NCBI GenBank assembly: GCA_018645725.1
Contig: JABGWD010000342.1
Span: 1 to 49,530 of the forward strand
DNA from: Opitutia bacterium
GTDB taxonomy: Bacteria; Verrucomicrobiota; Verrucomicrobiia; Opitutales; Seribacteraceae
DNA: 49,530 nucleotides
Direction of reading: 5' to 3'
Shown here: one piece after another, positions 27,058-32,947 of the stretch
Position numbering within the stretch: the stretch's first letter is position 1
Layout of the letters: the number at the start of each line of letters is the position of its first letter
The notes under the pieces: model-generated
What the model saw: the letters and a program-made list of their open reading frames with translations, nothing else
The model's database searches: none
What the model was told of the DNA's origin: nothing
Translations under genes and position numbers: made by a program

Positions 27058-27114
27058 TCACCAAATAAATTCCTTGAAATTGGAATCCCTAATTTGTCAA
27101 TTTGGTCCCCTACC

Positions 27115-29334
27115 TTGAAAACAACAAATAAATCTCTCGTTCGGTCCCTTTTGATAGGTTGCGTGTCAATGACCTCACCCGTCCTTTGGGGCAATGCGTT
27201 CACAATTTCCACTACTTTGCCGAGCGACCTCCAATCCGCATCCTCGGTGTTTTCAAAATACGTCGAGGTTTTCGGACTTCGGGTTTTGGCAACCTCGAGC
27301 GTATCCGATGCCAAAGTTCTTCACACCGCAAACGTCTTGGCCGAATACCTCGACAATGATGAAAATGGCGTAATCGACCAAGCGGAAGTTCTGACCTCCC
27401 TCATTGGCACGTCGAACTCCACAATTTCGACCATGGTGCTCTTTGCATCCCAAACCGAACAAGATTCTCTCGACTCAAGCTTGGCGAGCTTGGAAACAAT
27501 CATGACTCGCACGCAAAATTTGTTTGCCGATGAAATTTTCGAGAATGGAAGTCAGGGAGAAAACCGTGATGCAACCTTGGAGGAGGTTCTCCACTTGGTT
27601 ACCGACAAGGGATGGGACGAAGCATTCCCTGCTGTCTGGGGCGAAAAACAAGGAAGCAGCATCGCGAATGCAATGGACACGGCGCGAGGAGGCTATTTCG
27701 AGATCATCCCCGCGGCTTATCCTGCCAATGCATGGTATACCTATGACGACCCTACCTCAGACTACCCAACGCAAGTCACCGAGTACGTCTATTGGGCAAC
27801 CACCACTTACCTTGGCGGTCAAAACTGGAGCGGTCGGGTTCATTCGAACTTCACCAACGAATGGAAGCCCATCACACAGGCGGACCTCAACACCACCGAC
27901 CCCGCAGTCGTCTCTCTTCTGACCTCTTCGAGTTACAACTTTCCAATCACCCAACTTCCCGACGGCAACTATTCCGTGCCAAGCGTACGTGCGAGCGCTT
28001 CCTTTACGACAACAAGCGGATGGAAAAACAGTTCCTGGTTCGGTTACTTTTACGATCCCGGCAGCAATTGGATTCACCATCAGTATCTAGGGTGGCTCTA
28101 CCCTGTTGATTCGGGCTCGAGCGGCACATGGTTTTATCATTCGAGCTATGGTTGGATGTGGACCAACTCCACCGCCTATCCATGGATTTATTTTTATTCC
28201 CTTTCTGGTTGGAGATACTTTCTCTCTGGCAAAGGCTTTTACAAGGCCGATACAGGCGCGTGGACCGCGGTCGAAAGCTTCTCGGTGGAAACTTCGGGAG
28301 ACACAAACAATGACAACTCGAGTTCTCAGGCCGGATATGGAGATGAAAACAGCGCAACCGTATGGAGTTCCACGGCAAACGCATCGGTGTCCCTGTCACA
28401 CGCGACTTCCAATGGCAATTCGGTCATGACACTCACCAGCAACTTATACCCGGATTGGAACATCACCGGTGAATCCGATCATTACGTCACCACACCTTCG
28501 GCTCAGATCGAGACCGTTGAGATCATCCTGCATCCTGACTCTACGGCCAGTTTTCATAACGAATTGGTGGTCTACGATCCCACGTTCAGTGACGTCGCCC
28601 ATATTGGACGACCCAACAATTCGCTTCCCGATTACACCCACTGGAATTCTTCCACCCAGCCCAAGGAATTGCTCGCGGTCGATATGCTGTCCGTCGAAGC
28701 CTATGACATGACTTCCTCACATGGGGCGAACCCGAGATATACCGGAAAGTTACGCTTTAACGTTCATTATATTGGCGACAACGGACTGACTGGCGTAACC
28801 TGGCAAAGTGGAACGATTCCCCTGAGCAATGATTACTTCTATGCTCACACGCAACCCACGGGCGAATACCACCTCCACGGTTTCAAGGCAGGCATGGAAT
28901 TTGATTATTCGAACAAAATCATAGGCTATGCGCTGGATGGGCATGCGGTCATGGGAATGAACACGAAAATCCATCAACCGGTTATGGACAGTGCAAACGT
29001 TCTTTCCGGATATGATGCGAGTGCGCAGACCAAACCCGCCCTTTCCGGTTACGCCTTGATGGAAACGAGCAAATTAGTTGAAGCCCGAGGAGTGGATTTG
29101 AGCACGACCAATTTTCCAGCGGGCATTTTTCACGTCGATCATGAATACGCCAGCACGGTAGCTTCGGACTCCTACTCCCTGGACAAATACAATATGGGCT
29201 ACGTCACGCTTACGGATAAGGATGGTACGCAAAGAGTTGAAAAAGCCTATGTTCAAACCCGAACCTATCCCTACTTGGTACATACCTTGTACGGGGCCAA
29301 CACCAGCGGAACAACCAGTTCCTCCAATCAATAG
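27115..29334 (+). CDS. Exported EF-hand / Trp-rich module / YHYH-domain protein
   Basis: A 739-residue probable exported protein with unknown function. A start at TTG 27115 gives a good signal peptide (MKTTNKSLVRSLLIGCVSM, cleavage near WGNA); a TTG 7 codons earlier is also open and no ATG suits. Residues about 55-95 include the EF-hand loop DNDENGVIDQAE. Residues about 302-382 form a Trp/Tyr-rich module (GWKNSSWFGYFYDP, GWLY, WMWT, YP), also found in the protein at 32147-32947. The C-terminal third resembles the YHYH family: TGEYHLHG followed by IIGYALDGHAVMG. Convergent with the PQQ-type gene; the 60-base gap has CGCC/GGCG and GCAAAAG/CTTTTGC repeats that could form a terminator. Confidence 0.75.
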   Translation: MKTTNKSLVRSLLIGCVSMTSPVLWGNAFTISTTLPSDLQSASSVFSKYVEVFGLRVLATSSVSDAKVLHTANVLAEYLDNDENGVIDQAEVLTSLIGTSNSTISTMVLFASQTEQDSLDSSLASLETIMTRTQNLFADEIFENGSQGENRDATLEEVLHLVTDKGWDEAFPAVWGEKQGSSIANAMDTARGGYFEIIPAAYPANAWYTYDDPTSDYPTQVTEYVYWATTTYLGGQNWSGRVHSNFTNEWKPITQADLNTTDPAVVSLLTSSSYNFPITQLPDGNYSVPSVRASASFTTTSGWKNSSWFGYFYDPGSNWIHHQYLGWLYPVDSGSSGTWFYHSSYGWMWTNSTAYPWIYFYSLSGWRYFLSGKGFYKADTGAWTAVESFSVETSGDTNNDNSSSQAGYGDENSATVWSSTANASVSLSHATSNGNSVMTLTSNLYPDWNITGESDHYVTTPSAQIETVEIILHPDSTASFHNELVVYDPTFSDVAHIGRPNNSLPDYTHWNSSTQPKELLAVDMLSVEAYDMTSSHGANPRYTGKLRFNVHYIGDNGLTGVTWQSGTIPLSNDYFYAHTQPTGEYHLHGFKAGMEFDYSNKIIGYALDGHAVMGMNTKIHQPVMDSANVLSGYDASAQTKPALSGYALMETSKLVEARGVDLSTTNFPAGIFHVDHEYASTVASDSYSLDKYNMGYVTLTDKDGTQRVEKAYVQTRTYPYLVHTLYGANTSGTTSSSNQ

Positions 29335-29395
29335 AGCAAAAGACGCCGAAGTCTCAGGCGCTAAACCACAAGCATTTCTTTTCCTTTTGCCCCTC

Positions 29396-30649
29396 TTACT
29401 CGCCAAGGCAGAACAAGTGCTTTTCGCCCCGGATAAGGAGACGATTCGCAACGGGAACGGGCGAGGCGATTACGCGTTCACCCATGTCGCTCTCCGCTAG
29501 AAACTTGAAACCGTCCGTAACGTCGGCAATCAGAATGACACCGTCCTCGCGTGGAGCGTAGAGCTTCCCTCCGGCCACCGTGGGTGATCCATAATAACTC
29601 GAACTGGCTCGCGGAAAAGCATCTTCCCAATGGCTTTTGCCTGTCTTCGGGTCAATGCAATGAACTTCACCGCGATCCCGCAACACATAGATCTTTCCAT
29701 TCGCCACCGCCGGAGTGGGAACGAAAGATCCGCTGTCGGTCCGTGTCCATAGGCGATGGGAATCCGAAACGTCACCCTTTCCTCCAAGCTTGATTCCCGC
29801 CAAATGAGTACCCCGACCATAGGGTACGATCGCAACATCCCCTGCAACCACTTGCGAACCGACCACTACCCAGTTTTTCTTCTGCTTGGGATTGAAACCG
29901 GTCGACACCCATAACGTGGAACCATCCTTTGCCGAATGAGCGGACAGCCTCTCGGCCCCCCAGACGAGGATCGCTGCTTCCCCCTTGTGTTTGATGAGGG
30001 TAGGCGTGGCGTAGCTATGGTCGCACTCGGGGGGAGTTTCGTAATTTCGCTCGATCTTCCACGCGACCTTTCCGTTCTTCGGATCAAAGGCGACAAGCCA
30101 GGAATTGTTCTTTCTCATCAAGGCCACAATCACGTGTTTACTCGTGAGAATCGGGGAAGTGCCAAAGTCCCAGTAAAGCGTATCCTTGCCGTAGGAAGTC
30201 AGATCGTTCTTCCACAGAATCTTTCCCTCGAAATCCAAACAGGCAAAGTTCCCACTCTTGAAAAGAGCGAAGATGCTCTTTCCGTCCGTGACGACCGAGG
30301 GGTTGCTTCCCGACCCGTTCCTATGCTTACCCTTGCGCTCATCGCCGACTTGCTTCTGCCAAAGTCTCCCCCCATTCCAATCGAACGCCAACACGGCATC
30401 CTTGCCCTCGACCGGGCAGGTCAACAAAACGTGATCATCCCAAACAACGGGGGTCGAACAACCTTTTCCCGGCAAAGAAACTTTCCAAAGAAGGTTTTCT
30501 CCACCGCTTAGCTTGGTCGGATAGGACCCTTTGTCCGTGGAACCCAAGGCTTGCGGTCCCCGCCAAGCCGGCCAACGCCTATCAGGGTCAGCCAAGGCGA
30601 TGCTTGCCACAACGGATAAAAGATAAATCGAAGTCAAGATTCTGTTCAT
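29396..30649 (-). CDS. Exported PQQ-type beta-propeller protein
   Basis: A 417-residue protein with a signal peptide (residues 1-20, cleavage after SIALA). The mature start DPDRRWPAWRGPQALG is the WPxWRGP entry typical of secreted PQQ-like propellers in Planctomycetes and Verrucomicrobia. Blades carry the repeated AFDxxxGxxxWK pattern (VLAFDWNGGRLWQKQV, LDFEGKILWKNDL, AFDPKNGKVAWKIE, IDPKTGKSHWEDAF). Such propellers may be scaffolds or quinoprotein relatives; catalytic residues for PQQ dehydrogenase are not evident, so no enzymatic role is assigned. Confidence 0.88.
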   Translation of the reverse strand: MNRILTSIYLLSVVASIALADPDRRWPAWRGPQALGSTDKGSYPTKLSGGENLLWKVSLPGKGCSTPVVWDDHVLLTCPVEGKDAVLAFDWNGGRLWQKQVGDERKGKHRNGSGSNPSVVTDGKSIFALFKSGNFACLDFEGKILWKNDLTSYGKDTLYWDFGTSPILTSKHVIVALMRKNNSWLVAFDPKNGKVAWKIERNYETPPECDHSYATPTLIKHKGEAAILVWGAERLSAHSAKDGSTLWVSTGFNPKQKKNWVVVGSQVVAGDVAIVPYGRGTHLAGIKLGGKGDVSDSHRLWTRTDSGSFVPTPAVANGKIYVLRDRGEVHCIDPKTGKSHWEDAFPRASSSYYGSPTVAGGKLYAPREDGVILIADVTDGFKFLAESDMGERVIASPVPVANRLLIRGEKHLFCLGE

Positions 30650-30735
30650 GCTTCAAGTAGGAATGAAGAAAGGGTTTCCGATCAAGCAAATATAGCAACT
30701 CCTGAGACATTAAGCCAAGGAAATCGACATGCCAA

Positions 30736-30764
30736 TTGACCAGCGGCGTTTCATTCCCTACTTT
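30736..30764 (+). promoter_or_regulatory. Candidate promoter of small membrane protein gene, very short leader
   Basis: TTGACC (30736-30741, 5 of 6) and TACTTT (30759-30764) are 17 bases apart. The -10 ends 8 bases before the ATG at 30773, the same spacing as at clpC, predicting an almost leaderless transcript. Confidence 0.4.
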
Positions 30765-30772
30765 TTCGAACA

Positions 30773-31258
30773 ATGTACGACAACCCCTCCATTACCTACT
30801 CCTCGAATTCGGACCCCGAACTCTTTGGAGCAATGTTAATCATTGCGATAGCCGTCGTGATCGGCTTGCTCGTAGGGATTGGGATTGCGGCTGTCCTCTG
30901 TTACTTCATTTCAAATTGGCTGAAGGAAGTTCCCGAGGAAGACCGGGTCATGACGCCTGGCCAAGTTTGGCTTTTGCTCATCCCGTTTTTCAGCTTATAC
31001 TGGCAATTCCGAGTCTACATGCTGGACATCCCGCAGTCCTTCAAAAATTATTTTCAGCGACAAGGGAATCAGGAAGTCGGCGACTGTGGCAAAACAATGG
31101 GAATGTGGCTTTGCATATGTACCCTTTCCAGCTTAATTCCCATAATTGGATCGATCGTTGGAATGGGTACCTTGGTCTTTTTGATCATGTGGATGCTGAA
31201 GATCCACGAACTCAAGAACAAGATCATCGCCGACAGGCAAAAAACAGGCGAAACCTAG
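30773..31258 (+). CDS. Small membrane protein of unknown function
   Basis: A 161-residue inner-membrane protein. Three or four hydrophobic segments are visible: about 20-46 (a Gly/Ile-rich helix), 62-78 (VWLLLIPFFSLYWQF) and two near 110-145. The stretch NWLKEVPEEDRVMTPGQVWLLLIP resembles conserved membrane proteins of planctomycetes and verrucomicrobia but I know of no named role. Its TAG stop shares a CTAG with the stop codon of the opposing DUF1080 gene. Confidence 0.75.
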   Translation: MYDNPSITYSSNSDPELFGAMLIIAIAVVIGLLVGIGIAAVLCYFISNWLKEVPEEDRVMTPGQVWLLLIPFFSLYWQFRVYMLDIPQSFKNYFQRQGNQEVGDCGKTMGMWLCICTLSSLIPIIGSIVGMGTLVFLIMWMLKIHELKNKIIADRQKTGET

Positions 31259-32013
31259 GGAAGTTCGCGCAAGCGCATTCCCCGATAATCAACGGGGGCA
31301 CCCTCCGATTCCATGACCAAATGGCCTTCGCTCGGTTTGCATTCGTACCCACCGGACACTTCTTCGCCATTCACCCAGAGACGGATCTCCCCCTTGATCG
31401 CCCGGACGTAGTAATGATTCCATTTCCCCACCCCATTGCTCAACCGCTTGGTCGGGAATGAACGGGCGCTGTTCGGTTTGCCCACCTTGTATTTCGTCCC
31501 GTCCTTGGCGGTATAGGTAATTTCCGGAGTGAATGCCTTCATTCTTCCCACTCCGACCGGAAAAACGTCTCCGTGACTGGTAAACCAATTCGAGTGCTTG
31601 CCCTTGTTCTTCAAATGATTCTCTTCATACCCCAGATCGAGAATCTGGATCTCGATCCCCTGAGGAAGCCTGCCCCGTGGGAGCTTGTCCAAAACGGCCC
31701 GCGGGCACCAAATGAAGATGCCCGCATTGCCTGCATAACGCAAATGCTTCCACTCGATAACCATTTCGAAATTCTTGTATACTTTTTGGGAACGCAAACC
31801 CCCGCTCGGTTTTCCCGTGCAATGCATCGTGCCATCGTCCTTGAATTGAAACGTTTCCGGATCGCAGTTCACCTGGGCAAAATCCTTTTCACCAAGAGTT
31901 ACCCAATCGGGTCCTGAAATCCCGTCCAAAAAAGCCTTGGACGGAGTGTTTGGAACTCCTTGCAAAGAAAGGAGAGTACAAAGAGGAAGTAGGAATAGCG
32001 GAAAAACCTTCAT
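31255..32013 (-). CDS. Exported DUF1080 (3-keto-disaccharide hydrolase domain) protein
   Basis: A 252-residue exported protein: signal peptide 1-19 (MKVFPLFLLPLCTLLSLQG), then a concanavalin-like beta-sandwich of the DUF1080 family with YKNFEMVIEWKHLRYAGNAGIFIW, GIEIQILDLGYE, KWNHYYVRAIKGEIRLWVNGEEV and the closing GHLVMESEGAPVDYRGMRLREL. Members are abundant in Planctomycetes and Verrucomicrobia and some act on 3-keto sugars; activity here is inferred from family only. It overlaps the opposing membrane-protein gene by four bases at the stop codons. Confidence 0.9.
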   Translation of the reverse strand: MKVFPLFLLPLCTLLSLQGVPNTPSKAFLDGISGPDWVTLGEKDFAQVNCDPETFQFKDDGTMHCTGKPSGGLRSQKVYKNFEMVIEWKHLRYAGNAGIFIWCPRAVLDKLPRGRLPQGIEIQILDLGYEENHLKNKGKHSNWFTSHGDVFPVGVGRMKAFTPEITYTAKDGTKYKVGKPNSARSFPTKRLSNGVGKWNHYYVRAIKGEIRLWVNGEEVSGGYECKPSEGHLVMESEGAPVDYRGMRLRELP

Positions 32014-32080
32014 CCCCTAAAGTTGGTTTTCATGAAAGCCTATGGCAAGCGCGATTGAGAAGAAATCCAAACTTTGTCTT

Positions 32081-32115
32081 TCCGGGTAACGTTTTGAGAA
32101 AAGACGTTACCCGGA
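32081..32115. terminator. Long perfect hairpin between two secreted-protein genes
   Basis: TCCGGGTAACGT (32081-32092) and ACGTTACCCGGA (32104-32115) form a perfect 12-bp stem, extendable by a wobble and two A-T pairs to about 15 bp with a GAGAA loop. It lies 32 bases past the stop of the leftward 32147-32947 gene and upstream of the DUF1080 gene, so it could terminate the first. No U-run follows on either strand, so a classical intrinsic terminator is not proven; a protein-binding palindrome or RNA stabiliser is possible. Confidence 0.5.
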
Positions 32116-32146
32116 CTGACCCAAAAGTACAAAAGGCACGATCAAC

Positions 32147-32947
32147 CTAAGGAGAACCCCTCTCAAAGGACTTGGTCGAAAAATTGTAATAGGTCTTCCC
32201 CGGCATTTGCACCATGAGATAAATCCAAGTCGTATCCTTGTGCCTGTAAAGATGGGGATAAATACCGGGACCGGTCCATAGCCATTTTTGATCGGGACTC
32301 CAAAGCCAAAGGGAATGAGCATCCGCTTCGGCAGAGTAGAGCCATCCGTGATGCCGGTGCAAAATCCATCGAACGTCTTCGTTGGGCTGATAAAACGAGC
32401 CGAACCAATTGGAATCCTTCCAACCTGGTTGCGACAGCCTGACGGAATCAGCAAGAGCCGAAGGCAAGCGAGCATTTCCCAATGCGGAAGATGGGGTTTC
32501 TCCCGGTTTGACCCGGATGAACAAATGAGCCGTCAGGCCCTGACTGGTGGCTTGCAGGGCAACCCGGGACCTTTTGGATATGACTTTGGCCTTCGCAAGG
32601 ATGCCTGCGGGGACTTCTTCAATGGAAACTTGATCGCTTGCACTCGACCACTCCACCGCCGTAAAGGGCAAATGCGTGAGCGTTCCGTCATCCAGCAGGA
32701 GAGCAGCCTGAAGCGGCGAACTCTCTCCGGACAAGAGGGTGTTCTTGGAGGCAGTCGCCGACAAACCGACTGGTTGGGCAAAATCGGCAATCGGGCCGAC
32801 TTGGTTAACGATGCTTCCACTTGAATCCTTGGAAATCCCACTGAAAGCGGCACCCAAAACACCTTGGTGTTCGATTTGAGAAAAAGCGCTGCACGCAACA
32901 AGAAAAGATATTGCAAGAAGAGAATATTTTTTGGCAAAGACAATCAT
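32147..32947 (-). CDS. Exported protein with Ig-like domain and C-terminal Trp-rich module
   Basis: A 266-residue exported protein without a known function. A signal peptide occupies residues 1-24 (LLAISFLVACSAFSQ). Residues about 50-145 look like a bacterial Ig-like (Big) domain (LSATASKNTLLSGESSPLQA, then ALQATSQGLTAHLFIRVKPG). Residues about 175-265 are the Trp/Tyr-rich module shared with the 27115-29334 protein: GWKDSNWFGSFYQP, WILHRHHGWLY, WLWT, YPHLY, GKTYYNF. Here it is C-terminal; there it is internal. The putative -35 TTGACT (32992-32997) with a poor -10 lies upstream. A strong hairpin follows the gene. Confidence 0.75.
   Translation of the reverse strand: MIVFAKKYSLLAISFLVACSAFSQIEHQGVLGAAFSGISKDSSGSIVNQVGPIADFAQPVGLSATASKNTLLSGESSPLQAALLLDDGTLTHLPFTAVEWSSASDQVSIEEVPAGILAKAKVISKRSRVALQATSQGLTAHLFIRVKPGETPSSALGNARLPSALADSVRLSQPGWKDSNWFGSFYQPNEDVRWILHRHHGWLYSAEADAHSLWLWSPDQKWLWTGPGIYPHLYRHKDTTWIYLMVQMPGKTYYNFSTKSFERGSP

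Follow-up and report, generated by a model that had tools for sequence, protein, structure and literature searches.

That C-terminal domains can place exported proteins at the cell surface is, as a general idea, already known. Type IX secretion C-terminal domains (CTDs) are C-terminal beta domains of a size similar to the module described here, and are borne by many exported proteins; choline- and glucan-binding repeats and GW modules are aromatic hairpin units of about 20 residues, or carry GW dipeptides, on surface-attached proteins. PEP-CTERM was inferred to be a sorting signal from its C-terminal position, its many copies per genome and its occurrence on diverse proteins with signal peptides (PF07589; Haft 2006, PMC1569441).

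Here we describe a lineage-specific domain of about 105 residues, found in two genes of a window of 49,530 nucleotides (the whole stretch of DNA analysed) from an Opitutia bacterium. The module resembles PEP-CTERM in being C-terminal and multi-copy, in its diverse signal-peptide passengers and in its lineage, PEP-CTERM having likewise been first found in a Verrucomicrobium; however, PEP-CTERM consists of a short motif, a transmembrane helix and a basic cluster, whereas the module is a soluble all-beta domain. With the type IX CTDs (the Por secretion tail families of NCBIfam) it shares the form of a C-terminal beta domain on many exported proteins, but it differs in its Trp-rich hairpins and matches no CTD model. 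The working principle that we propose for it is similar to that of the choline- and glucan-binding repeats (PF01473 group) and GW modules (PF13457): we consider the chances about even that it is a C-terminal domain whose binding keeps proteins exported by the Sec route on the cell surface or within the extracellular matrix.

An aromatic module common to two exported proteins

Protein A (746 aa; 27094-29331, plus strand, with a possible TTG start) comprises a signal peptide (KSLVRSLLIGCVSMTSPVLWGNA), judged by sequence alone, an N-terminal domain (residues ~33-294; 27190-27975, plus strand), an internal copy of the aromatic five-hairpin module (27982-28272, plus strand) and a YHYH domain (28816-29295, plus strand). 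Protein B (266 aa; 32147-32947, minus strand) has a signal peptide, an Ig-like N-terminal domain without a Pfam match (32447-32896, minus strand) and the module, which extends to the C-terminus of the protein (32150-32461, minus strand). Both copies of the module are supported by profile search, BLASTP and AlphaFold2. Protein A had been described in the original prediction as an EF-hand/YHYH protein; the second part of this name is borne out by a match to PF14240 (E 2.6e-9, residues 575-734), but the EF-hand-like loop DNDENGVIDQAE was judged by eye and the N-terminal domain in which it lies has no Pfam match.

BLASTP aligns residues 291-387 of A with residues 157-258 of B at 34% identity over 102 aa, with 71.2 bits and E = 4e-18. 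The raw local score is 179, against a maximum of 74 among 1000 shuffles of B's segment, and the module alignment has 30 identical columns. Judged by this similarity the two segments are homologous. The Trp/Tyr-rich segment predicted to be common to A and B was therefore recovered by BLASTP, and all the conserved residues that had been named for it are found in the alignment; the profile gives a slightly longer module (27982-28272, plus strand, in A and 32162-32461, minus strand, in B) than the limits first proposed (28018-28263 and 32150-32425). A recent exchange of the module between A and B was rejected, as the module tree places the two copies in separate clades.

The modules of A and B match no family in Pfam or NCBIfam, and attempts to assign 34-77 modules to a family in these databases were likewise unsuccessful. 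PDB sequence profile searches gave 0 matches, and no description of the module was found in the open literature. Within the scope of Pfam (2025), NCBIfam (2026), the PDB and the open papers searched, the module represents an undescribed domain family, in agreement with the prediction that it belongs to no named one.

Predicted structure of the module

AlphaFold2 confidently predicted an all-beta, aromatic-rich domain for the modules of B (pLDDT 92.4, pTM 0.83, 34 sequences) and A (pLDDT 90.7, pTM 0.81, 77 sequences), as had been anticipated in the proposal of a small beta structure. Both models have the same ten strands, arranged as five consecutive hairpins with a period of about 19-20 residues, an agreement that is one of strand assignments rather than superposed coordinates and that comes from predictions sharing overlapping alignments, and hence not fully independent. 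In the B model (108 residues) the strands are 18-21/25-28, 36-39/43-51, 54-59/63-67, 74-77/82-86 and 94-97/102-105. Within strands, aromatic positions alternate with aliphatic ones (36/38 versus 37, 56/58 versus 57, 64/66 versus 65, 74/76 versus 75, and 83/85 versus 84). Across the 34-sequence alignment five Trp residues (W36, W56, W64, W66 and W83) never vary, and W44, H39 and P73 are invariant or nearly so.

No close solved relative of this arrangement was found. Foldseek searches with both models against the PDB, and against viral models too, returned nothing at E <= 0.001. The best structural rows from VIA, for which Z values under 8 often arise by chance, were LptC for the B model (Z 3.5) and the OCRE domain of RBM5 for the A model (Z 4.4, rmsd 3.5, 55 residues); both were rejected as the fold because these scores are too weak. 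No carbohydrate-binding fold was convincingly matched by either model.

Copy number and distribution

The original prediction placed the module in two proteins, which proved to be an understatement. A profile built from these two sequences gave 37 matches in the genome to which the window belongs (3.93 Mb, 470 contigs), about 36 of them credible, the weakest being doubtful as it contains stops; the true copy number may differ from this count. Many of the module genes in this genome lie at contig ends (for example on C402, C90, C230 and C422), perhaps because the assembly breaks at long genes rich in repeats.

With a later profile, made from the 34-sequence alignment, all 25 genomes of the genus were matched, with 3-40 copies each. 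Within the family to which the window belongs, all genomes listed have matches, and several have at least 17. Across the order, 56 of the 277 genomes carry the module, and these represent 27 of its 90 genera, in a patchy distribution and often with multiple copies. Three genomes with the module lie outside the order in a phylum sample of 388, and two in a class sample of 384, one with 11 copies; the module is thus almost absent from the phylum beyond the order. The named relatives that carry it are MAGs labelled Opitutia and Opitutales. There is no sign of spread by plasmids or phages, as no plasmid or phage record was matched.

Position in proteins and passengers

In the genome of the window the C-terminus can be read for 32 copies. 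In 24 of them no more than 20 residues separate the module from the stop (no more than five in 23), and eight are internal. In other genomes 49 of 51 sampled copies, drawn from high-scoring matches, end within 20 residues of the stop. The contrast that had been drawn between an internal copy in A and a C-terminal one in B is correct, but the typical place is C-terminal and A is the exception.

Module carriers with a complete start have N-termini that, by eye, are mostly signal-peptide-like. The passengers scanned include cadherin arrays, LRR, M23 peptidase, FGE-sulfatase and YHYH, with further pairings of a glycoside hydrolase catalytic core with cadherin, FG-GAP with LamG, and a beta-propeller with InlB-type repeats. 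Of 486 protein pairs with similar modules, 391 have no detectable passenger similarity. The passengers are mutually unrelated, in support of the prediction of a mobile module joined to unrelated partners. One protein (L034:812-2209, plus strand) bears the module at the end of an FGE-sulfatase (formylglycine-generating-like) region, an unusual pairing of exported enzyme and tag.

Possible function of the module

As with the carbohydrate- or surface-binding role suggested in the original prediction, surface retention as the function of the module is an inference. Under this model the passenger would cross the envelope by means of its N-terminal signal peptide and a general route, and the module would fold outside the cell. 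The conserved Trp and Tyr residues, at alternate positions of most strands (Ar-x-Ar), would form an aromatic surface, with aliphatic residues on the opposite face, although the aromatic residues could instead be mainly a structural core. The ligand of this aromatic surface would be a repetitive structure of the cell surface, a surface glycan or capsule being the likeliest, so that one handle could serve many passengers. Surface binding is favoured because internal copies (eight of 32) are more readily understood for a binding domain than for a signal read from the end of the protein, and because a type II secretion signal is disfavoured and a type IX signal unsupported.

A secretion or sorting signal of an undescribed machine would also agree with the near-exclusive C-terminal placement among the relatives sampled. 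PEP-CTERM itself does not account for the module: PF07589 had 0 matches in the genome of the window and none in any of the eight family genomes tested, whereas 1-82 copies occur in most of the order's other genomes, and the module-bearing C-termini that were read have no PEP motif, transmembrane helix or basic cluster. A role for the module as a simple replacement of PEP-CTERM was rejected, as other families of the order carry both, and so was dependence on exosortase, whose presence in 34 of 38 genomes, both with and without the module, does not discriminate carriers; one carrier (G149, 85% complete) had no exosortase that we could find. A type II secretion signal is disfavoured by three genomes (G078, G101 and G164; 90-94% complete) that carry 8, 5 and 3 modules, respectively, yet have no match to secretin (PF00263), which most other carrier genomes have. 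The type IX CTD models of NCBIfam had no match in 34 members at E <= 10, and type IX secretion is unsupported. The module might instead be a folded C-terminal secretion or sorting signal read by a dedicated, lineage-specific outer-membrane machine, functionally like a type IX CTD; we regard this as possible but unlikely. Its position, multiplicity, diverse passengers and signal peptides all fit, and the eight family genomes in which PEP-CTERM went undetected suggest that the family may use another tag. However, a quarter of the own-genome copies are internal, other families of the order carry the module together with many PEP-CTERMs, and SprA_N (PF14349) went undetected in 38 genomes, although the control set gave no match either, which makes this absence uninformative. 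We are equally doubtful of the broader idea that this folded Trp-rich domain is the tag of an undescribed sorting or surface-display system of marine Opitutales-type bacteria, with its own receptor or machine; if it were, dozens of exported proteins per genome would use the tag, in a family without detected PEP-CTERM.

Two further readings retain binding but change the ligand. That the module is a carbohydrate-binding module for a growth substrate, such as an algal or other polysaccharide, and aids enzymes, seems improbable to us: it is an aromatic-rich beta domain, and a glycoside hydrolase catalytic core occurs in one carrier and LamG in another, but most scanned carriers are adhesin-like (cadherin, FG-GAP, LRR or InlB repeats) or non-CAZyme enzymes (M23, FGE-sulfatase). 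We think it about as improbable that the module is a protein-binding or self-assembly domain for proline-rich or other peptides, in the manner of OCRE and WW. OCRE is a twisted six-strand antiparallel sheet in which exposed Tyr residues bind polyproline (PMC5127646). Its Pfam model (PF17780) had sub-threshold matches in five of 77 members (best E 0.029), the commonest such match together with DUF6600, and the WW model matched two of 77 (best 4.6e-4); in the structural comparison, too, OCRE heads the rows for the A model. However, the OCRE match seen in detail scores 7.6 against a curated cut-off of 24.7, the structural score is in the range common by chance, Foldseek gave no support and OCRE is not among the rows for the B model. 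Consecutive antiparallel aromatic hairpins, which in OCRE form a twisted sheet, are predicted for the module too, but OCRE is a eukaryotic splicing domain of about 55 aa and six strands, whereas the module is bacterial, exported, Trp-dominated and predicted to have ten strands; the likeness would be one of analogy only. As for the choline-binding systems, the PF01473-group and PF13457 models had no match among 77 members at E <= 10, one of 34 members touches a PspC-related choline-binding model of NCBIfam at E = 3 only, and the fold of a choline-binding repeat or GW module is not among the structural rows listed for the A and B models, though the module may still share it.

One HMM made from this alignment would be enough to annotate tens of proteins in each genome. 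The module is a handle on many otherwise unannotated exported proteins of an uncultured marine lineage, makes the keeping of secreted proteins at the surface of these bacteria a testable question, and might serve as a surface-display tag.

Two observations concern the secretion genes themselves. All eight family genomes have exosortase and none has a PEP-CTERM match; the exosortase of this family is apparently without classic substrates, or a variant signal is in use. The three carriers in which secretin was not matched belong to genus g15, and in G149 secretin occurs only as a stop-containing fragment, which suggests that type II secretion and type IV pili have been lost in parts of genus g15.

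Evolution of proteins A and B

An orthologue of A in one genome (G016) has an identical domain order and 86% identity. A second, in G017 (L155:1128-3341, minus strand), adjoins queA, as does A in the window, and keeps the N-terminal domain and module with other sequence following the module. A third, in an SP85 MAG (L031:2110-4599, plus strand), also keeps these two domains, and A aligns with it over residues 8-401 only. A paralogue in G016 (L156_949_1995) consists of the N-terminal domain alone, its alignment to A (residues 2-294) stopping at the module boundary. The N-terminal domain of A therefore occurs both with and without the module. These relatives, which break at the module boundary or differ after the module, are direct evidence that joining has been modular at either edge.

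The region after the module in the G017 orthologue (contig C4), of about 320 aa, differs from that of A and by eye resembles the N-terminal domain (EVLEHLMH versus EEVLHLVT). The C-terminal region of L031 also differs from that of A, yet contains YHYH (GVYHYHKYPTC).

The N-terminal domain of B is conserved in the genus (35-54% identity), with orthologues in 16 genomes, including that of the window, in frames mostly of 259-286 aa. The B orthologues examined have the module at their end, and in the module tree these copies group as a single clade. In G017 (contig C4) the orthologue of B (L158:1689-2504, plus strand) occupies two frames, of which the second holds the module; a frameshift, an assembly error or decay would explain the split.
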